A DNA stretch of 30,227 nucleotides, taken from positions 1 through 30,227 of the IMG/VR virus record IMGVR_UViG_3300025889_000626. One strand, written 5' to 3'. Made by a program: the position numbers and the translations under genes. The notes under the pieces were generated by a model. That model was not told where the DNA came from, did not search any database, and saw nothing but the letters and a program-made list of their open reading frames with translations. Shown here one piece after another: positions 1 to 30,227 of this stretch. Origin of the DNA: a virus. Every line of letters starts with the position of its first letter. The stretch's first letter is position 1.

Positions 1-31
1 GGCGGTGTTTTGTATTTTCCATGTTTAACAT
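1..31 (-). CDS. 5' fragment of small HTH protein gene (left allele)
   Basis: The first ten codons (start at 31, reading left off the window edge) match the beginning of the complete 112-residue HTH gene at 29199-29537. An AGAGGT ribosome site lies just upstream and overlaps the stop codon of the preceding 43-residue gene. The rest of the gene is found at the other end of the window, which supports circularity of the genome. Confidence 0.8.
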   Translation of the reverse strand, partial: MLNMENTKHR

Positions 32-40
32 TTTGTACCT

Positions 41-172
41 CTATAGTGTGTTGTAAATGGTTGCCAGATATGCCAACGCCTTAAACGCTGGAAATATTAA
101 CATCGCACCGCCCAATGCCATTATACATTGGCCGATCGTTGTGCCTAGCTCGTGTGCCTGTTGTTTGTTCAT
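41..172 (-). CDS. 43-residue single-pass membrane protein (left allele)
   Basis: A short gene encoding 43 residues, beginning MNKQQAHELG. Residues about 13-38 are hydrophobic and rich in Gly, Ala, Ile and Leu, so one transmembrane helix is expected, with a short polar N-terminus. The start overlaps the stop of the 97-residue gene as ATGA, and a GAGGGGG ribosome site lies inside that gene. The same gene is present at 29547-29678 with two substitutions (HE to QQ at residues 7-8), so the reading frame is under selection. Function is unknown. A small phage membrane effector, such as a superinfection-exclusion or holin-like peptide, is only a guess. Confidence 0.7.
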   Translation of the reverse strand: MNKQQAHELGTTIGQCIMALGGAMLIFPAFKALAYLATIYNTL

Positions 173-462
173 TGTACCCCCTCAACAATATACATTGATT
201 CTATTAATTCGTGCGATTGTGTAACGTAATCCAATGTTGCAACGTCCATTGGTAACCATTCCATGATACCCGTTACATGTGTGATAATTAACACGCGGGT
301 GTTGGTTGCCATTGCTGGCATATTGGTTTGGCCCATCGGTACGATCTGCATTGATTCCACTAGATCGTGGCACGTGGTGATATGTTCTAACGCGGCAACG
401 GTGTATGGCATCCATTCCATTTTGCCGGATACGTAAGTAATAATTAATATTTTGGTTTGCAT
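169..462 (-). CDS. 97-residue protein made of two tandem repeats; indel cassette
   Basis: The protein consists of two 38-residue units, residues 4-41 and 56-93, which share 21 identical positions, including LIIT, MEW and the ESM..IV end. The start has a GAGGCAAAACA ribosome site. The stop overlaps the start of the 43-residue membrane protein gene (ATGA), so the two are translationally coupled. The whole gene is missing from the second allele at the right end of the window, where the same flanks are joined directly; it behaves as an optional cassette. I recognise no family. Each unit looks like a small alpha/beta element (beta strand LIIT, then helix). Function is unknown. Confidence 0.75.
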   Translation of the reverse strand: MQTKILIITYVSGKMEWMPYTVAALEHITTCHDLVESMQIVPMGQTNMPAMATNTRVLIITHVTGIMEWLPMDVATLDYVTQSHELIESMYIVEGVQ

Positions 463-491
463 TGTTTTGCCTCGGTTGGTGGTTTATTTTA

Positions 492-528
492 CGTGGCACA
501 AATCGCGTATAGGTTGATTTGTACCACG
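492..528. other. Conserved intergenic hairpin
   Basis: An inverted repeat with arms at 492-504 and 516-528 forms a 13-bp stem with one mismatch and an 11-base loop. It lies between the 152-residue gene and the ribosome site of the next gene. There is no T-run on either strand, so it is not a typical terminator. The loop and most of the stem are preserved in the other allele at 29708-29744. It may be an mRNA processing or stability element, or a binding site. Confidence 0.6.
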
Positions 529-550
529 CAAAACAAACCGGTTTGGTTGT

Positions 551-1009
551 TTATAGGTTGTTTACGAATAATTCAATTTGTGTTTGTTCATCACTCGATA
601 ATTCACAAATGCGATTACTAAAACGGCCACGCATTAAAAAATTACACGGGAAACGGCCATGGAATCCAAACGGTTTTAATACCATGATTAAACCACACTC
701 GGGGCGGCCACTACCAAGTACACACACAACAATATCGGTTGATGGTATCTCACTTATTTGGGTTACATTTTGCATTGTATAACCATGTGGTAATTGGTAA
801 TTTTGTGGTAATTTAAATTCTTCTTTAGAAACGTTTGTAGCCTTTAAATAAAATTGTTGATCATATTCGTTGTATTCAATTACACAGCTGAACAAACCGC
901 CATTTTTACCCTTACTAATAAATTTGTATACGGTATCGGTTGGCATGTTGCCGTTTTGCATTTCTTCTAATAATATTTGCGCCTGTTCGTATGATACATA
1001 TGGTTGCAT
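551..1009 (-). CDS. Conserved hypothetical 152-residue protein (left allele)
   Basis: This is the first gene behind the promoter at 1072-1100. The start at 1009 has a GAGGCAAAACA ribosome site, and the longer in-frame extension to 1156 runs back through the promoter, so it is rejected. The protein is soluble and mixed alpha/beta, beginning MQPYVSYEQAQILLEEMQ. It contains LGSGRPECGL and a basic, aromatic stretch around KPFGFHGRFPCNF. The allele at 29767-30225 has the same length with seven substitutions. As the promoter-proximal gene of what looks like the early operon it could be a host-takeover or regulatory protein. No family was recognised and the function is unknown. Confidence 0.75.
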   Translation of the reverse strand: MQPYVSYEQAQILLEEMQNGNMPTDTVYKFISKGKNGGLFSCVIEYNEYDQQFYLKATNVSKEEFKLPQNYQLPHGYTMQNVTQISEIPSTDIVVCVLGSGRPECGLIMVLKPFGFHGRFPCNFLMRGRFSNRICELSSDEQTQIELFVNNL

Positions 1010-1071
1010 TTGTTTTGCCTCGTTTGGTTGTTTTGGTTGTTTTGATATATACACTTGATTGTGTATACATA

Positions 1072-21877: not shown

Positions 21878-21906
21878 GTTATAATCATGTATACAATATA
21901 CCACAA
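21878..21906 (-). promoter_or_regulatory. Candidate promoter for the packaging/late operon
   Basis: On the minus strand TTGTGG (21901-21906) and TATAAC (21878-21883) are 17 bases apart, upstream of the gene starting at 21860. The spacer contains TATATTGTATAC, similar to the TATATA/GTATAC end of the early promoters. On the opposite strand a TATAAT (21880-21885) could serve the divergent plus-strand gene at 21917. Confidence 0.5.
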
Positions 21907-21916
21907 CGGGGGGGTT

Positions 21917-22264
21917 ATGCCACAATATCAGGTACCACGCAACATACGTACGATTGCCGATCGTGCGTTGGAATACAATAGATCGTTACCACAATCAAAA
22001 CGAGCTGCATATAAAGAGGATGGCGGTAAACGTGTACCCGGTACGGGTATGTTAACGGCGCGGCGGTTGGCATCCGGCCGTGTGGATGATGATCAAATAT
22101 TGTTAATGGCCGCATGGTTTGCACGCCACGGTGCCACCAATGCCAGTAAACGCCGCGACCCCTCCAGTAAAGCCGCGATCGCGTGGGCCCTTTGGGGTGG
22201 TACGCCGGCCCAACGTTGGGTTAAACGCATGGCAAAACAGATAGAATCGGGTAAAAACACTTAA
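21917..22264 (+). CDS. Plus-strand 115-residue protein with IAWALWGG motif
   Basis: The ATG at 21917 follows a GGGGGGG ribosome site; the ten-residue upstream extension is not needed. Residues about 70-105 (MAAWFARHGATNASKR, then SKAAIAWALWGGTPAQRW) match a short module that I have seen at the ends of phage head or maturation proteins and as stand-alone small proteins; its function is not known. The protein ends GKNT, encoded by a repeat (22250-22270) that also encodes the GKNT end of the convergent exonuclease. A terminator follows at 22294-22328. It is transcribed against the rest of the genome. Confidence 0.7.
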   Translation: MPQYQVPRNIRTIADRALEYNRSLPQSKRAAYKEDGGKRVPGTGMLTARRLASGRVDDDQILLMAAWFARHGATNASKRRDPSSKAAIAWALWGGTPAQRWVKRMAKQIESGKNT

Positions 22265-22293
22265 AAACAGGTACGTTTTTGCCTATGATATCC

Positions 22294-22328
22294 AACGGCC
22301 CGCATGTGTACCATGTTGGGCCGTTTTT
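22294..22328 (+). terminator. Rho-independent terminator for the plus-strand gene
   Basis: AACGGCCC (22294-22301) pairs with GGGCCGTT (22318-22325), with an inner CATG/CATG pairing, and is followed by a short T-run. It lies 29 bases after the stop at 22264. Confidence 0.7.
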
Positions 22329-22434
22329 GGTGTTTGATCTTTGTTATTTATAGATATATATATTTCAAAATAAAATTGTAATTTAAGTGTTGATTATAGA
22401 ATAATATAACTATAAAGCGCGCACCGCCGATATC

Positions 22435-22451
22435 ATAGCCGGATCGGCTAT
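22435..22451. other. Short perfect hairpin inside the candidate origin
   Basis: ATAGCCG and CGGCTAT form a 7-bp stem with a three-base loop. It is followed on the plus strand by CTGTTTTT, so it could act as a plus-strand terminator that stops transcription entering the exonuclease gene from the left, or as part of the origin structure. Confidence 0.5.
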
Positions 22452-22467
22452 CTGTTTTTAAGTGTTT

Positions 22468-23064
22468 TTAAGTGTTTTTACCTGTTGATTGTTTCCGATC
22501 TCGCCATAGCCGGTACATGTGGCCCACAAACAATTTAAAACGTAGCCATACCGAGGCCCGCGCCAATAACATGTACAAATCATAACAATCGTAAACATCC
22601 GTGGCGGCCGTGTGAGCTGTTGGCCGTACCCATCCCAAAAACGCCCGCACCGTATCCATTGATAAATCGGGGCAACCAATCGGCGTTAAATGTTCATGTA
22701 CGAGGGTAATGGTATCAATGCCACGCAAACGTGGTATGCGGTGCCCGCATCGCTTAAACGCCTTGTTTATAAAGCCAATATCAAATGCCACGTTATGGCC
22801 AACCACCACGCACCCATCCAACATAATGCCGAATACATCCGCAATATCTTTAAATTCGGGCGCGTTGGCCCAATCACTCGGTGTATATCCGTTGATCTCC
22901 AATGCCACCGGATCCGCCGTGGCGATGTGTGCCGGCGCAATGCGTTTATGCCAAAATTGTTTGGTGCCATCATCCAATACAATCAACGCCGCGATTTCAA
23001 TTATTTCGTGGCGGCTGTTATCGAGCCCTGTTGTTTCCGTATCTATAAAAACCAATTTGGCCAT
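22468..23064 (-). CDS. DnaQ-like 3'-5' exonuclease
   Basis: 198 residues with the DEDD-family motifs: Exo I FIDTETTG (D8, E10), Exo II GHNVAFD (D95) and Exo III with H151 and D156, giving the DEDDh arrangement. It should remove nucleotides from 3' ends of DNA or RNA. No polymerase gene is encoded, so it acts alone or with a host polymerase, in proofreading-like trimming, host DNA breakdown or recombination. The C-terminal 30 residues are basic and end GKNT, encoded by the inverted repeat shared with the convergent gene. The ribosome site is GGGGGT, close to the ATG. Confidence 0.88.
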   Translation of the reverse strand: MAKLVFIDTETTGLDNSRHEIIEIAALIVLDDGTKQFWHKRIAPAHIATADPVALEINGYTPSDWANAPEFKDIADVFGIMLDGCVVVGHNVAFDIGFINKAFKRCGHRIPRLRGIDTITLVHEHLTPIGCPDLSMDTVRAFLGWVRPTAHTAATDVYDCYDLYMLLARASVWLRFKLFVGHMYRLWRDRKQSTGKNT

Positions 23065-23134: not shown

Positions 23135-24049
23135 TTATGTTATCAAATCATCCAACAAACCAGCTTGCACAATACGTTGGCCGATCCATTGTGAACACTG
23201 AGGCACGATCGCATTGCCCAACGCCTTTAATTGTTCTTTTTCAATTCGTCGCATGGCTCGCCATTGGGATCGATCCACCCCTCCGGGAATCCCATCATCC
23301 ATTGTACAAATTGTGGGTTTAGGCGGTTGGGATTGTTGCCAGTATGTTTTACATCCATCATTGCGCTTAATGTTTTTGAATTTCGCCGGTGTTCGGAGGG
23401 TGCGCCGGTCTCTTTTGCCAAATGTGCAACCGGTGTTGGCAACATCCCCCGTTGTATCATGTACATTAACGGGCGGCCGCCCTGTTTGTATTGGGTTTTG
23501 TGTTCGCATCCCGTGGCCGTTGGCGTTGGCAATAACCCGTGTTGGGTTTGGCTGCTCGGGGGTATATGCAACGCAAAACCACCGCCGGCGTTGGTGGGGT
23601 GCGCCGCATTGTGCAGCTGATATAATACCCCATTCAACACAATACCCGAGGGTGGCAAGGGATCCGACCACCTCGGATCCCCCCATGGCAACAATGTTTG
23701 GCACGTTTTCCAATATTGCAATTCGTGGTCGTAGCTCGCTAATGATTCGCCACATTTCCCACCATAAACCCGATCTTGTTTCATCTTTAATAATCCCCCG
23801 TTGTTTGCCGGCGGTGCTGATATCTTGGCATGGAAATCCACCACATATAACGTCCACCGGTTGTAAATTGTGTGCGCCCACTTCGCGCACATCGTTGTGT
23901 ATTGTTGCATTGGGCCAATGTTTGGCCAATATGGTTTGGCAAAACGCATTTTGTTCTACTTGCCAAACCGTTGTGGCATCACCAAATGCGCGCTCCAAAC
24001 CGAGCTCAAACCCGCCAATGCCGGCAAATAATGAACCTATTTTAATCAT
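23135..24049 (-). CDS. DNA (cytosine-5) methyltransferase
   Basis: 304 residues from the ATG at 24049, which overlaps the end of the helicase-like gene. The conserved motifs are all visible: FAGIGG at 8-13 (AdoMet binding), GGFPCQ at 70-75 with the catalytic Cys 74, ENV at 114-116, QRRRW at 153-157 and GNA at 278-280. It transfers a methyl group from S-adenosylmethionine to C5 of cytosine in a specific site. The target-recognition region (about 165-265) is short. No restriction endonuclease is adjacent, so this is a solitary enzyme, most likely protecting phage DNA from host restriction. Confidence 0.93.
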   Translation of the reverse strand: MIKIGSLFAGIGGFELGLERAFGDATTVWQVEQNAFCQTILAKHWPNATIHNDVREVGAHNLQPVDVICGGFPCQDISTAGKQRGIIKDETRSGLWWEMWRIISELRPRIAILENVPNIVAMGGSEVVGSLATLGYCVEWGIISAAQCGAPHQRRRWFCVAYTPEQPNPTRVIANANGHGMRTQNPIQTGRPPVNVHDTTGDVANTGCTFGKRDRRTLRTPAKFKNIKRNDGCKTYWQQSQPPKPTICTMDDGIPGGVDRSQWRAMRRIEKEQLKALGNAIVPQCSQWIGQRIVQAGLLDDLIT

Positions 24050-25331
24050 TGACCCACACCCGCCCCGTTTTGGTTTGTTTGGTACGGTAACCGAGATCAC
24101 GGCATATTTGCGAGATCCGGCGCGATAATCCCACATGCCGTTGGCCCATCGGTACATCCAACGCATCCAATATTGCATCGGTGGTTGCCGGCATTTCGGG
24201 GTTTGCATGTGGCCCGTTTGCCGCTTGCAATACCTTTTGTGCGGTTACGGCCCATGGATCGGCAACAATGTATGCGTGTTGGATGCGCTCCAATTCGGCG
24301 GCCTCGTTTGGTGTTAGATGCCATTGCATACCGTTATTGTATTCGTGCAACGCCTCACGAAATAGATCAACACGATTTGTTGCCACCCAATCAACATCAA
24401 CAGGGCGCACGATTTGCAACGGCCAAAAACGCCGCTCGGGGCCATCCGTTAAAAATTGCATATCGTTGGTGGTTGCAACAAACACCGTACGCCGTTTGCG
24501 CAATACGGGGGTTTTACCCCATGTTGGCCGGTAACGATCCGCGGGGGATGTTAAAAACATTTTGGCATTGTTTGCCGATCGGCCGTGCAGCGCGTGCATT
24601 TCGGCCAGCTCCCACACCCACACCAACGATTGGTGGATTAACTCGTATGCGCTTTTATTGGTAATGTTGATATTGCTATCACTAAACCATTTTTGCCCCG
24701 CCAATGCGCGTAATACGCGGCTTTTACCCATCCCTTTTGGGCCAACCAACGTTAACACCGTGTGTACATCGCAACCGGGATCCATGATTCGGGCAACCAA
24801 CGATACCATAAACCGTACGGCCAACATATCGTAAAACGGTTGTGTACCGTTTGGCACCTCAACCCCCCAACGTTGATCAAACATACCGGCAATGCGTGGT
24901 GTATCCACATCGGGATCCCACGCCGGCAATGATTCCAACCATGCGCGGATGGGCTCAACACGGTTTTGGTTGGCAACGCGGATTATGCACCCAACCAAAA
25001 ATGTGTCTTTGGTTTTCAATCTGTAATCACGCTCGAGATCCAACGCTATTTGCTCAATGTCGCACGGTTCTAACATGGCCCCGTGATACAACACACGATC
25101 GGATTGCACGCAATATTGCAATGTTTCATATTTGGGATCCCCCTCGAGGATCAACGCCAAATTGTGGCGGCTACAAATCGCGGTGGGCAATTTGGTTATG
25201 TTGCCATCGGCATCGAATTTTGCGGGGTTTTTTGTTAGTTTGTGCCACGTGTCCAGGTGACCCGAGGCGGGGCAATGTGAACGATCGATTTTATGGCCCA
25301 ATGATTCGGCAATGGTTAATATTTTGCTCAT
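24042..25331 (-). CDS. VirE-like helicase/ATPase (replication)
   Basis: 429 residues. The ATPase core has Walker A GPKGMGKS at 197-204, a Walker B-like strand LVWVWELAE at 236-243, VFVATTND at 283-290 and an arginine-rich RRFWPL at 300-305, as in the virulence-associated E (VirE) family, which is close to SF3 helicases of phages and plasmids. It probably unwinds DNA at the origin. The primase partner would be the AEP-like protein at 27879-28736. It is translationally coupled to its upstream HTH neighbour (ATGA) and overlaps the methyltransferase gene downstream. The N-terminal 150 residues show no primase motifs. Confidence 0.88.
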   Translation of the reverse strand: MSKILTIAESLGHKIDRSHCPASGHLDTWHKLTKNPAKFDADGNITKLPTAICSRHNLALILEGDPKYETLQYCVQSDRVLYHGAMLEPCDIEQIALDLERDYRLKTKDTFLVGCIIRVANQNRVEPIRAWLESLPAWDPDVDTPRIAGMFDQRWGVEVPNGTQPFYDMLAVRFMVSLVARIMDPGCDVHTVLTLVGPKGMGKSRVLRALAGQKWFSDSNINITNKSAYELIHQSLVWVWELAEMHALHGRSANNAKMFLTSPADRYRPTWGKTPVLRKRRTVFVATTNDMQFLTDGPERRFWPLQIVRPVDVDWVATNRVDLFREALHEYNNGMQWHLTPNEAAELERIQHAYIVADPWAVTAQKVLQAANGPHANPEMPATTDAILDALDVPMGQRHVGLSRRISQICRDLGYRTKQTKTGRVWVND

Positions 25332-25573
25332 GATACTACCTTATTGTGTGCAATTGTGTACGGTATGGCCTCGGTTATAACGGCCTGTAATGGTTGATTT
25401 GTTAGCGTTGCAATGGCATTGCAAATACGCAAAAATGTTAACATGTTTGGATCGAATTGCGTTAACCGCCACGGGTGTAACGTTTGATACCCAACGCCCG
25501 CAATTTGTGCAAACGCCGTGCGGGTCAATTCTAAATTCTGTAATTTGGTATTTAACCACTCGTAAAACGTCAT
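25328..25573 (-). CDS. Small HTH protein upstream of the helicase
   Basis: 81 residues from the ATG at 25573, with AGGAG at good spacing. The longer frame to 25774 is a shadow over the neighbouring gene. LTRTAFAQIAGVGYQTLHPW is a likely XRE-type helix-turn-helix, followed by LTFLRICNAIATL, typical of the fourth helix. It overlaps genes on both sides as ATGA. It may regulate the early operon or help load the helicase at repeats; the sequence does not tell. Confidence 0.7.
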   Translation of the reverse strand: MTFYEWLNTKLQNLELTRTAFAQIAGVGYQTLHPWRLTQFDPNMLTFLRICNAIATLTNQPLQAVITEAIPYTIAHNKVVS

Positions 25574-25761
25574 TGTGCCAGCTCCTGAATTGCCCACCCG
25601 ATTATGTGATGGTGGTAAATTATCAATGTTTCGGTGCCACCCTCGCAAATAACGTTGGTGAACACGTACCGGTGATCGTGCGCCTTGGTTTTGGAGATCA
25701 CCGCAAACAATATTGCCATGTGTTGTTGTGTTAACGGCCGGTTGATTATGATTCGTTGCAT
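25570..25761 (-). CDS. Hypothetical 63-residue protein
   Basis: A short reading frame locked between two neighbours: its start overlaps the upstream stop (TAATG) and its stop overlaps the downstream start (ATGA), which supports it being translated. GGGGGTG lies upstream as a possible ribosome site. The product is soluble and His-rich (YVFTNVICEGG, IIYHHHIIGW). No family was recognised. Confidence 0.6.
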   Translation of the reverse strand: MQRIIINRPLTQQHMAILFAVISKTKAHDHRYVFTNVICEGGTETLIIYHHHIIGWAIQELAQ

Positions 25762-25967
25762 TATGCACCCCCAACGATTGGGTATTTTATCCGATGCAAT
25801 GCCCGGTTGCGTAGCTGGTTATACATGCGCCGGTTGGTTTTTACTTGGTTTGCGTGTTTGGTGGCCGCTTGCAATGTTGCATATGTGTTTACATACGCCC
25901 ATTGCCCCGCAACCCACATAAACAACGCAAAACGTTGTGCGGTTGGTTGTATTTTGGTTTGTACCAT
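25761..25967 (-). CDS. Hypothetical 68-residue basic protein
   Basis: The start at 25967 has a GAGGCAAACG ribosome site; the longer frame to 26126 crosses the upstream gene. The product, beginning MVQTKIQPTAQRFALFMWVA, has a helical, aromatic middle and a basic C-terminus (NRRMYNQLRNRALHRIK). It could bind nucleic acid. Function is unknown. Confidence 0.6.
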   Translation of the reverse strand: MVQTKIQPTAQRFALFMWVAGQWAYVNTYATLQAATKHANQVKTNRRMYNQLRNRALHRIKYPIVGGA

Positions 25968-26338: not shown

Positions 26339-26977
26339 TTAAAATAATTTCAATTGGCGCGCGTGAGCTGTATATCTGGCAACGGCGTTTGCGTGATACT
26401 CGGGATCTATTTCCCACGCATCCAAGGCGTAACCGGCATTGTAACATGCAATGGCGATAGATCCCGATCCCAAATGCGTATCAATGATGCGATCCCCCTC
26501 GTTTGCAAACGTATCCAATAACCATTGGTACAGCTGCACCGGTTTTTGTGTTGGGTGGATCTTGCCCTTGGTACGATTATCAAATTTAAACAATTTGGCC
26601 GGTTTGTTGTATGATGTCCAAGCGAGCTCAATTTGTGAGAAATTGGGCCACGGTTGGCATTTATCCCACGCAATAACGCAACGGCCACCGTGCGCCCAAA
26701 TACTCGGGAAATAGTTACCGCCCCAAATGATCTGGTTACGCGATACACGCCGCAATTGATCAAAATATTCCGGGGTGGGTGCGTTATCCCACGCATCCGC
26801 TTTACCATGGTGGGCAAAAAATGCGCGGTCGCCATATTGCCCACCGCCGTTTAAACCACCGCCCAACCATGATTGTTTATCCATCCCGTACGGCGGATCC
26901 ACAATTGCCAAATCATACGCGTTATCATCCATGGCCCGCATGGCGTCCAAGCTATCACCCAAATGTAAATTAATCAT
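26339..26977 (-). CDS. N6-adenine/N4-cytosine DNA methyltransferase, paralogue 2
   Basis: 212 residues. VDPPYG near residue 26-31 is the catalytic motif IV, HPTQKPV introduces the later motifs, and DTHLGSGSIAIAC is the AdoMet-binding motif I. The order catalytic-then-AdoMet is that of the beta class. It is the tandem copy of the gene at 26990-27604: the first 30 and the last 60 residues are nearly identical, while the middle (about 32-140), which should contact DNA, is different. It has AAGGAGG, the strongest ribosome site in the window. The length is short for the family. No endonuclease is adjacent, so anti-restriction or regulatory methylation is likely. Confidence 0.9.
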   Translation of the reverse strand: MINLHLGDSLDAMRAMDDNAYDLAIVDPPYGMDKQSWLGGGLNGGGQYGDRAFFAHHGKADAWDNAPTPEYFDQLRRVSRNQIIWGGNYFPSIWAHGGRCVIAWDKCQPWPNFSQIELAWTSYNKPAKLFKFDNRTKGKIHPTQKPVQLYQWLLDTFANEGDRIIDTHLGSGSIAIACYNAGYALDAWEIDPEYHANAVARYTAHARQLKLF

Positions 26978-26989
26978 TGTGTTACCTCC

Positions 26990-27604
26990 TTAAAACAATT
27001 TTAATTGGCGCGTGTGTGCCTGATATCTGGCAACGGCGTTTGCGTGGTATTCGGGATCTATTTCCCACGCATCCAAGGCGTAACCGCTGTTGTAACATGC
27101 GATGGCAATGGATCCCGATCCCAAATGCGTATCAATGATGCGATCGCCCTCGTTTGCATAGTTATCCAATATCCATTGGTACAACGCCACCGGTTTTTGT
27201 GTTGGGTGCATCCGGTTGGGATCGGTACTGTTTATTTTTACATATCGCGCCGGGCTGTTAAAACTGGTTACCGCTAATTCTACTTGGCTCATGGTTGGTA
27301 CGTACGTCATTTTATCCCAAACAATAAAGCACCTGTAACAATTAACAGGGAAATAATTACCGCCCCAAATGATTTGGTTACGAGATATGCGCCGCAATTG
27401 ATCAAAATATTCCGGTGGCGGGATCTCATTATCCCAATCATGAGCTGCAAATTTTGTTTGGCTATTTCTGGTTTTTTTGGGATCTTTACCACCGTATGTT
27501 TTGTTGCCTAATCCGTATGGCGGATCCACTATCGCCAAATCATACGTGTTATCATCCATGGCCCGCATTGCCGCCAAGCTATCACCCAAATGTAAATTAA
27601 TCAT
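26990..27604 (-). CDS. N6-adenine/N4-cytosine DNA methyltransferase, paralogue 1
   Basis: 204 residues with VDPPYG (catalytic DPPY at 27-30), HPTQKPV and DTHLGSGSIAIAC, a beta-class methyltransferase. Its termini match the neighbouring paralogue almost exactly, but the region from about 32 to 140 (NKTYGGKDPKKTRN and onward) is different, which suggests another recognition site. The start overlaps the upstream HTH gene as ATGA. The two genes are 12 bases apart and arose by tandem duplication with replacement of the middle. N6-adenine versus N4-cytosine cannot be decided from DPPY alone, though DPPY is more usual for adenine. Confidence 0.9.
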   Translation of the reverse strand: MINLHLGDSLAAMRAMDDNTYDLAIVDPPYGLGNKTYGGKDPKKTRNSQTKFAAHDWDNEIPPPEYFDQLRRISRNQIIWGGNYFPVNCYRCFIVWDKMTYVPTMSQVELAVTSFNSPARYVKINSTDPNRMHPTQKPVALYQWILDNYANEGDRIIDTHLGSGSIAIACYNSGYALDAWEIDPEYHANAVARYQAHTRQLKLF

Positions 27605-27882
27605 TTTGTTACCCTCGTTTTGCGTTTGTGAAATTCGTAATCGTAATGCGCCCGTATCAAATCCATGATCAAACGCTCATATTGATCGGGATCCTTGGCA
27701 ATGGCCGCCGTGAGCTCGTAAATACGGTAAAATGGCATTGTGTGCGTGTGTTGCAACCACCGGCGCACCGTGGCGGGTTGTACATCGCAATATTGCGCGA
27801 TTTGGGCCACCGTTTTACCATTGGCATTGGCGGCGTTTATAACTGCATTGCCCAATGTTGAATATTTGATATTTTGATTCAT
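27601..27882 (-). CDS. Small XRE-like HTH protein upstream of the methyltransferases
   Basis: 93 residues from the ATG at 27882, which overlaps the primase stop as ATGA and has GAGG ten bases away. KTVAQIAQYCDVQPATVRRW is a clear helix-turn-helix, followed by the YRIYELTAAIAKD helix and a basic tail (YEFHKRKTRVTK). Its stop overlaps the first methyltransferase start, so they are translated together. It may control expression of the operon or bind the palindromic operators. Confidence 0.75.
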   Translation of the reverse strand: MNQNIKYSTLGNAVINAANANGKTVAQIAQYCDVQPATVRRWLQHTHTMPFYRIYELTAAIAKDPDQYERLIMDLIRAHYDYEFHKRKTRVTK

Positions 27883-28736
27883 TTTAACAGATCCTCGAGG
27901 GTGCCAAACCACCCGCATTTGTTTTGCCGGTTACAACGGGGCCAAACAACGCCGCCGATTGTTTCCGGATCGATTGTGTAATACACCTCGTTATGGGCGC
28001 AATTTGGGCACGTGATGTTGCGTACATTGTTACCGTTAACCGTGGCCCCAATTTGATTTGCAACAGCTAACCGCACACCGGGATCCAACATCGCCATGCG
28101 AACCGTTTTTGTTTCCGTACCTCGCAACGTGGTTTGCATCGGTTTGGGGCGCACAAATCGTTTTGGCACCGGTACGTGGCTGTAATCCAAATCGAGATAT
28201 GGCACACCCAAATGCACCGCCGTTTGGTGGTAATGCGCGGTGTGCATTGGATGTTTTGCCGTGCGTGTTGCCTCGGGTATGGTGTAACGGTAATAACCGC
28301 GCGCCGCATCATTGATTGCGGATTGATCGGGCATACCACGGCCCACCACATCGATCCACAGCTCATTGGCGGCGGTGGCCGCGCGATCCCAATCGGTGGC
28401 CGGTATTGGATTGGCCAACGGTAAAATAACGCGGTATTTGTGCCAATGCGGTTTATGGCTAAATGATGTGTGAGCTATCACGGCCCAATCACCAAACAAC
28501 CGCCACGTATCAAATGCGGTTAACCCATCATCCATATCGTACACCAAACAGTTAATGGCAACGGCGTTGGCTTTGGATCGGGTACCGTTAAACGTGGTTG
28601 GTGACCACATCGGGATGTGTTGTTTTTGTTGCCCACTGGCAACGGGGGTTGTTAACGCACGGGCCAATTGTGTATCACTGCATATTTGCCGTTGGCCCCG
28701 CGTGTTTAACATGTGTGTAAATGTTGTAATTTCCAT
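27879..28736 (-). CDS. AEP-like DNA primase with C-terminal zinc ribbon
   Basis: 285 residues. The pattern of an archaeo-eukaryotic-type primase is seen: a DxD strand LVYDMDD (D67, D69), a basic HKPHWHKYRVILPL segment (H97-R102), and a third carboxylate region DQSAINDAARGYYR (D137 or D143, R146) resembling the D-x-R motif of phage and plasmid prim-pol proteins. The C-terminus carries a four-Cys zinc ribbon (C243, C246, C268, C274), typical of primase DNA binding. It should make primers at the origin and work with the VirE-like helicase. The ribosome site is GAGGCAAATA. Confidence 0.68.
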   Translation of the reverse strand: MEITTFTHMLNTRGQRQICSDTQLARALTTPVASGQQKQHIPMWSPTTFNGTRSKANAVAINCLVYDMDDGLTAFDTWRLFGDWAVIAHTSFSHKPHWHKYRVILPLANPIPATDWDRAATAANELWIDVVGRGMPDQSAINDAARGYYRYTIPEATRTAKHPMHTAHYHQTAVHLGVPYLDLDYSHVPVPKRFVRPKPMQTTLRGTETKTVRMAMLDPGVRLAVANQIGATVNGNNVRNITCPNCAHNEVYYTIDPETIGGVVWPRCNRQNKCGWFGTLEDLLK

Positions 28737-28771: not shown

Positions 28772-29197
28772 TTATTGTATCTCGGGTTGGTGGTTGTAAA
28801 TTGTGTACATGGTGTGCGGTGTTTCGTATGCGTTGGCGTAATAATCCGTGGCTTGTATCTCAACCACCAAATTATCATCAACCCATACGCCCGATTTGCT
28901 AATGGCATCCATCACCATTTTGATCAAATTATCAATATCGGGTTTTGTTGTTTTCAACACGCGCCCAGGGCCTTTGATCCTAGCCGGCCGGCGGTGGATG
29001 AATTGCACGCACAATTTTAACGGCATGTTGGCCAATGGCGGCGCATCCCCCCAATCATTTGTAATCGTATCGATCGCGTGTTGCATGTATTCGCGTGATT
29101 TGGGCGGCGTGTACGCATGGCCCGAACGAGCTAACCGAGGCCGGCCCATCGCAACCGGCGGCCCCGCAATTAATCCCGTATGTATTGATTTCCACAT
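28772..29197 (-). CDS. RusA-like Holliday junction resolvase
   Basis: 141 residues from the ATG at 29197, which follows GGAG inside the end of the HTH gene; the longer frame to 29245 is rejected. KPDIDNLIKMVMDAI followed by GVWVDD reproduces the RusA active site, with D87, D89 and D107/D108 as metal-binding residues and K86 beside them. It cuts four-way DNA junctions symmetrically, which would resolve recombination intermediates or branched DNA before packaging. Length and motif positions match the family (about 120-140). Confidence 0.9.
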   Translation of the reverse strand: MWKSIHTGLIAGPPVAMGRPRLARSGHAYTPPKSREYMQHAIDTITNDWGDAPPLANMPLKLCVQFIHRRPARIKGPGRVLKTTKPDIDNLIKMVMDAISKSGVWVDDNLVVEIQATDYYANAYETPHTMYTIYNHQPEIQ

Positions 29198-29198
29198 T

Positions 29199-29537
29199 TT
29201 AACGCTCCAATGATTGCAACCGCATAAACGCGGCGCAATGTTCATTTACCACATCGTTGTTAATGATGTTGCCATAATCATCATACACCGCATATAACGC
29301 AACGCATATACGCAATAAGAAATGGCTCGCGGGGTATTGTGTACCGTTTAACCATTTATCCAATGCGGGTTTACTACAATGGATCTCGTTTGCCAATTGT
29401 ACTCGGGTAAAATCCGATGCATCCACCGCGGCATGTAACGTTGCCGCGAACCCACCGCCCGCCAACATTTTTTTGGCCACGGTGCGCCCATACTGTTTTA
29501 CCAATTGGCGGTGTTTTGTATTTTCCATGTTTAACAT
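29199..29537 (-). CDS. Small HTH protein, start of the replication block
   Basis: 112 residues. FTRVQLANEIHCSKPALDKW fits a Cro/C1-type helix-turn-helix, followed by FLLRICVALYA. The first 60 residues are basic and helical. The start has AGAGGT overlapping the stop of the 43-residue membrane protein gene. The first ten codons reappear at the left end of the window. It may be a repressor or a replication accessory protein. The co-occurrence of several such proteins suggests layered control of gene expression. Confidence 0.72.
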   Translation of the reverse strand: MLNMENTKHRQLVKQYGRTVAKKMLAGGGFAATLHAAVDASDFTRVQLANEIHCSKPALDKWLNGTQYPASHFLLRICVALYAVYDDYGNIINNDVVNEHCAAFMRLQSLER

Positions 29538-29546
29538 TTTGTACCT

Positions 29547-29678
29547 CTATAGTGTGTTGTAAATGGTTGCCAGATATGCCAACGCCTTAAACGCTGGAAA
29601 TATTAACATTGCACCGCCCAATGCCATTATACATTGGCCGATCGTTGTGCCGAGCTGTTGCGCCTGTTGTTTGTTCAT
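29547..29678 (-). CDS. 43-residue single-pass membrane protein (right allele)
   Basis: The same gene as at 41-172, with AQQLG instead of AHELG at residues 6-10. Here the ribosome site is GAGGTAACAAA and lies in an intergenic region, because the 97-residue gene is absent. One hydrophobic helix at about 13-38. Function is unknown. Confidence 0.7.
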   Translation of the reverse strand: MNKQQAQQLGTTIGQCIMALGGAMLIFPAFKALAYLATIYNTL

Positions 29679-29707
29679 TTTGTTACCTCGGTTGGTGGTT
29701 TATTTTA

Positions 29708-29744
29708 CGTGGCACACATCGCGTATAGGTTGATTTGTACCACG
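29708..29744. other. Intergenic hairpin (right allele)
   Basis: The counterpart of 492-528. Arms at 29708-29720 and 29732-29744 pair with two mismatches instead of one; the 11-base loop is unchanged. Confidence 0.5.
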
Positions 29745-29766
29745 CAAAACAAACCGGGTTGGTTGT

Positions 29767-30225
29767 TTATAAATTGTTTACGAATAATGCGATTTGTGCG
29801 TGTTCATCATCCGATAATTCACAAATGCGATTGCTGAAACGGCCACGCATTAAAAAATTACACGGATAACGGCCATGGAATCCAAACGGTTTTAATACCA
29901 TGATTAAACCACATTCGGGGCGGCCACTACCAAGTACACACACAACAATATCGGTTGATGGTATCTCACTTATTTGTGTTACATTTTGCATTGTATAACC
30001 ATGTGGTAATTGATAATTTTGTGGTAATTTAAATTGTTCTCTCGAAACGTTTGTCGCCTTTAAATAAAATTGTTGATCGTATTCATTGTACTCAATTACG
30101 CAGCTGAACAAACCGCCATTTTTACCCTTACTAATAAATTTGTATACGGTATCGGTTGGCATGTTGCCGTTTTGCATTTCTTCTAATAATATTTGCGCCT
30201 GTTCGTATGATACATATGGTTGCAT
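29767..30225 (-). CDS. Conserved hypothetical 152-residue protein (right allele)
   Basis: The same protein as at 551-1009 with seven substitutions, mostly near residues 60 and 140-150. The window ends two bases beyond its ATG, so its ribosome site and promoter lie outside; by analogy they are those at 1012-1100. Function is unknown. Confidence 0.75.
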   Translation of the reverse strand: MQPYVSYEQAQILLEEMQNGNMPTDTVYKFISKGKNGGLFSCVIEYNEYDQQFYLKATNVSREQFKLPQNYQLPHGYTMQNVTQISEIPSTDIVVCVLGSGRPECGLIMVLKPFGFHGRYPCNFLMRGRFSNRICELSDDEHAQIALFVNNL

Positions 30226-30227
30226 TT

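Follow-up and report, generated by a model that had tools for sequence, protein, structure and literature searches.

The window analysed here, a stretch of 30,227 nucleotides from IMG/VR virus record IMGVR_UViG_3300025889_000626, contains at 22236-22486 two inverted sets of iterons around an AT-rich centre, which, from their sequence and gene context, very probably constitute a replication origin. With hardly less confidence, we regard the element as a phage origin of the PICI/SaPI type that would be opened by the VapE-family helicase encoded in the same window, and VapE itself is probably the protein that binds the iterons.

Architecture of the element between two convergent genes

The element lies between a plus-strand ORF and a minus-strand ORF whose products both end in ...GKNT, with a gap of 203 bp between the two genes. 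It comprises, with its flanking genes:

21887-22264, plus strand: small gene, the conserved convergent neighbour of the element, without a Pfam or PHROGs match
22236-22275, plus strand: left iteron array of four 10-bp units, AACAGATAGA ATCGGGTAAA AACACTTAAA AACAGGTACG
22294-22325, plus strand: hairpin AACGGCCC...GGGCCGTT followed by a T run; stem kept in the relative L007
22329-22415, no strand: AT-rich centre (84% AT against 52% for the window)
22382-22391, minus strand: single central unit AACACTTAAA, the ninth unit, alone in the AT-rich centre
22435-22451, plus strand: hairpin ATAGCCGGATCGGCTAT, between the AT-rich centre and the right array; similar hairpins in L131, L132 and L134
22447-22486, minus strand: right iteron array of four inverse 10-bp units, reading AACAGGTAAA AACACTTAAA AACACTTAAA AACAGATAGC on the minus strand from 22486 to 22447
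22468-23064, minus strand: DnaQ-like 3'-5' exonuclease gene (PF00929, E=1.8e-24; PHROG 192)

As the preliminary description had proposed, an inverted repeat covers the stop codons of both genes: GGTAAAAACACTTAAAAACA at 22250-22269 (plus strand) recurs as a perfect inverse copy at 22463-22482 (20/20, no mismatch), compared with 15 bp for the longest exact inverted match in 1000 dinucleotide shuffles of the stretch. A weaker inverted match extends the repeat to 22236-22292 and 22429-22486. Each arm consists of four head-to-tail 10-bp units and is thus longer than the repeats first described, giving a 4+1+4 plan. The final codons and stop of the small gene fall within the left array, and those of the exonuclease gene within the right. 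The 30 kb window holds four copies of the motif TTAAGTGTT (0.23 expected), all of them within the element: once on the minus strand (22256-22264) and three times on the plus strand (22383-22391, 22458-22466 and 22468-22476). The AT-rich segment with a further repeat copy and hairpins that had been reported between the repeats is likewise confirmed, with a TTAAGTGTT copy inside the central unit and two hairpins.

The AT-rich centre likely serves as the melting region, and the hairpin at 22294-22325 is likely the terminator of the small gene; an Rfam search of 22100-22700 returned no RNA family. That hairpin, with its T run, would also suit a reading of the whole element as a bidirectional transcription terminator whose repeats are a by-product of hairpins. 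We give this reading almost no credence, as the arrays are direct repeats that are helically spaced and outlast hairpin changes, and the hairpin beside the right array lacks a T run for the exonuclease transcript.

The common GKNT ending is a by-product of the DNA repeat: with little room between the convergent genes, the array runs into both and encodes their final codons, which accounts for the shared residues. In relatives, the small gene and the exonuclease gene end in DKNT and DKNR (L007) or both in DKSR (L131 and L132), and in some the two proteins have no C-terminal residues in common. The exonuclease of L134 ends in ...ANES and the array follows after ~130 bp, free of coding overlap; in L133 the distance is ~700 bp and one array is kept, at the contig end. 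Arrays are also present in members without a recognised exonuclease gene beside them. These comparisons indicate that selection acts on the DNA repeat and not on the peptide ends, as had been suspected, because the array recurs with other unit sequences in other lineages and outlasts the loss of the exonuclease overlap, also where no exonuclease gene is recognised. The small gene has more than 60 viral relatives and a distant homologue in cyanophage S-CBS4, near head genes.

Conservation and helical spacing of the arrays

Relatives were gathered by VapE, exonuclease and small-gene searches. A nucleotide search of phage records, a search for phage relatives via terminase and portal proteins, and a scan of bacterial genomes with an alignment of the small gene each returned none. 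The exact 15-mer AAACACTTAAAAACA was found in 119 stretches of viral contigs, mostly as single copies. Repeats do occur in relatives that retain the two genes, the opposite of what would have spoken against the earlier proposal. L007, L131, L132 and L134 share the 4+1+4 layout, with the single unit in an AT-rich centre and the second set of four inverted; the unit sequence varies by lineage and is alike within one genome, and the central unit is conserved as AACAGATAAA in L007 and AAACAGATA in the other three. In more distant members (L142-L195), the array comes after the small gene and is built from units like ATACAGATAG, AAATACACGT and ACACTAGATA; together, the unit sequences of the window and its relatives include AACAGATAGA, AAAGCAGATA, AAATACACGT and ACACTAGATA.

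The geometry of the arrays is uniform. Among the 171 spacings between neighbouring units measured in 32 members, 161 are 10 bp (88), 11 bp (30), 20-22 bp (38) or 31 bp (5). These values correspond to one helical turn or multiples of it, and would be expected for proteins that sit side by side on one face of the DNA. We also searched 19 genomes blindly for exact 6-mers repeated at least three times at 10 or 11 bp. This search found essentially only the array zone and almost nothing elsewhere; it departed from this in G002, with one chance-like chain, and in G013, whose array is shifted to +924, beyond the exonuclease. No exact chain was returned for G000 (the window), G014, G015 and G018, because their units are too varied for the strict test.

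VapE, DnaA boxes and the replication gene cluster

The element lies 3' of a cluster of minus-strand replication genes:

24042-25331, minus strand: VapE-family helicase (PF05272, E=3.3e-52), the proposed origin-binding initiator, with a predicted C-terminal winged helix
27879-28736, minus strand: primase-like protein (PHROG 9765/2135, weak), present with vapE in relatives
28772-29245, minus strand: RusA Holliday-junction resolvase (PF05866, E=1.2e-21)

VapE was found in 19 of the 20 genomes searched (window included); it is absent from G019, which has only a distant homologue (33%) of the small gene. In most relatives, the array zone is flanked immediately by the small gene on one side and by the 3' end of vapE on the other; the primase-like gene and rusA come next. 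In the window, the exonuclease gene and a methyltransferase gene separate vapE from the array, which is still 3' of vapE. Further into the cluster, two tandem DNA methyltransferase genes (26339-26977 and 26990-27604) are ~67% identical and represent a duplication. The ends of the window (1-1011 and 29500-30227) overlap, positions 1-173 and 455-1011 matching the last ~720 bp at 97% and 95%, and L131 and L132 carry a homologue of the window gene 1059-1718 near the RusA side; the map of the window is circular or circularly permuted, and the overlapping copies, which differ by ~280 bp, are strain variants.

A VapE profile matched the structure 7pds (PriRep1 with dsDNA) with E=3.6e-27, and the predicted VapE model matched the same entry with a Foldseek E-value of 1.4e-14 and Z=19.4 (next best 8.4), although the AF2 model is of modest confidence (mean pLDDT 66). 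Its C-terminus is predicted to form helices at residues 384-390 and 400-412 and strands at 415-420 and 423-428, with a short helical turn between, an arrangement that the model presents as a winged helix. Residues 357-429 align with forkhead and other winged helices at low Z.

Residue 404 lies in the first turn of the last helix, the putative recognition helix. It is arginine in all 19 members with ACAG-type units and lysine in 12 of the 15 with ACAC-type units, the three exceptions being the window's own clade. In a tree built from the rest of VapE, the R/K change matches the iteron change in two separate clades, and the position is one of the two highest-scoring of 347 columns for co-change fraction. 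The covariation of R404/K with the iterons is a post hoc observation that fails in the window clade, and it is suggestive only.

The iterons could instead be bound by a separate small HTH protein, with VapE acting solely as the helicase of the same origin. The cluster does contain several small HTH-like genes (25328-25774, 27601-27918 and 29199-29537), and the one adjoining vapE evolves fast: its identity in L007 is 55%, compared with 89% for VapE. However, this gene was not found in G002, G004, G005, G008 and G013, all of which have arrays, VapE has a predicted winged helix of its own, and the rep proteins of PICIs are themselves initiators (PMC6092414). We therefore consider a separate binder unlikely, if far from negligible, and continue to favour VapE.

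Further support for an origin comes from DnaA boxes. Exact boxes number 41 in 22.6 kb of array zone and 9 in 495 kb elsewhere, a ~100-fold higher density, and clusters of 3-8 exact boxes adjoin the array in 7 of 19 genomes. Such clusters, with boxes often 11-12 bp apart, are present in L165, L191, L192, L176, L155, L148 and L141, which suggests that some members recruit host DnaA. The array zone of the window and its closest relatives contains no exact DnaA boxes. The earlier proposal of a replication origin bound by the helicase, a primase or an HTH protein thus gains support from VapE in all 19 genomes of this comparison, from the position of the element directly after vapE in most of them, and from the DnaA clusters in 7/19. 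The GC-skew signal it had anticipated around 22370 did not appear: the window shows no sign change or inflection there, a comparison of the two halves of 19 genomes revealed no sign change at the element, and the check is uninformative. The missing sign change, the lack of boxes in the zone of the window and its closest relatives, and the two genes placed between vapE and the array count against the origin reading.

The arrays could alternatively serve as operators for a regulator of the convergent genes or of an early/late switch. Phased direct repeats can also be cooperative operators, and HTH proteins are present; yet the array is located between two gene 3' ends and not at promoters, its unit occurs nowhere else in the window, and the DnaA boxes and the association with VapE would be left unexplained. 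We consider this reading very improbable.

That the small terminase binds the element as a cos or pac packaging signal appears more improbable still. In favour of this reading, the gene for the small terminase is ~1 kb distant, and the contigs of several relatives stop 160-1650 bp past the plus-strand gene. Against it, the array remains linked to vapE even in satellites and in VapE phages that are unrelated, DnaA boxes would be unexpected at a packaging site, and those contigs terminate on the side of the plus-strand gene that faces away from the array; on these three grounds the packaging reading was rejected. Many contigs of ~25-30 kb (L141, L144, L165, L177, L188, L191, L192 and L194) stop in this way beyond the 5' side of the small gene, close to the gene for the small terminase, which may mark a physical end of the genome, either cos or a terminal repeat.

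Comparison with known origins and other VapE replicons

In the origins of PICIs (SaPIs and E. coli PICIs), an AT-rich region with an iteron set on either side follows immediately after the 3' end of rep (PMC6092414). The window and its relatives likewise have two iteron sets around an AT-rich region, placed 3' of vapE (directly in most relatives, not directly in the window), and encode the cognate Rep/VapE helicase (PF05272; 7pds PriRep1). In contrast to these systems, the window array overlaps both convergent stop codons and is separated from vapE by the exonuclease and methyltransferase genes, its centre holds a lone iteron, and DnaA boxes are an addition in some relatives. The carriers differ as well: PICI satellites have an integrase, lack capsid genes of their own and depend on a helper, whereas the present genomes are tailed phages with no integrase found, and the window has its own terminase and major head protein genes.

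The inverted decamer arrays around a centre also resemble the arm-type integrase sites around the core of a phage attachment site. A tyrosine integrase was found in none of 20 genomes and a serine recombinase in none of 18, and for want of a site-specific recombinase in these genomes the attachment-site reading, which we consider scarcely plausible, was rejected.

Iteron plasmid origins combine DnaA boxes, iterons and an AT-rich melting region (PMC4980987). The helically spaced iterons, the AT-rich, likely melting region and, in some relatives, the DnaA boxes recall this layout, but here there are two inverted sets instead of one direct set, and the likely initiator is a helicase and not a plasmid Rep. 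The ori/crr system of phage P4 uses decameric iterons and a primase-helicase initiator, the alpha protein; both features resemble those described here, while sequence and layout differ.

By analogy with the PICI origins, VapE would bind both iteron sets through its C-terminal winged helix and hold the DNA between them. It would melt the AT-rich centre and then load there as a helicase, after which the phage primase would start synthesis. In some relatives, host DnaA on the box cluster adjoining the array probably assists.

We also scanned the DNA around vapE blindly in twelve isolated VapE phages and satellites. In eight of them, the strongest inverted 6-mer cluster was located 0-700 bp after the vapE stop, and L248, L249, L252, L253, L254, L255, L256 and L257 (isolated VapE phages and streptococcal satellites) have comparable inverted clusters of ~9-12 bp repeats behind vapE; in S-LBS1, a cluster is visible by eye at the record end. 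The scan returned no cluster downstream of vapE in Bacteroides SJC22, Leuconostoc LNTR3 and Xanthomonas FoX1, and a wider rule therefore has exceptions.

We regard it as evenly balanced whether VapE-helicase replicons in general, autonomous phages included, use the bipartite PICI-type origin, which would then not be peculiar to satellites, with the VapE winged helix reading helix-phased decamers that co-vary in sequence with it. If this is true, the coevolution of initiator and origin could be followed directly in this family. Its specificity is open to testing, since a single family of initiators occurs with many different units. The PICI-type plan is seen here in uncultured phages of about 27-30 kb that form one family and, through the blind scan, in several isolated VapE phages. 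It would link the replication of satellites to that of phages and make origins easy to find in phages with VapE.
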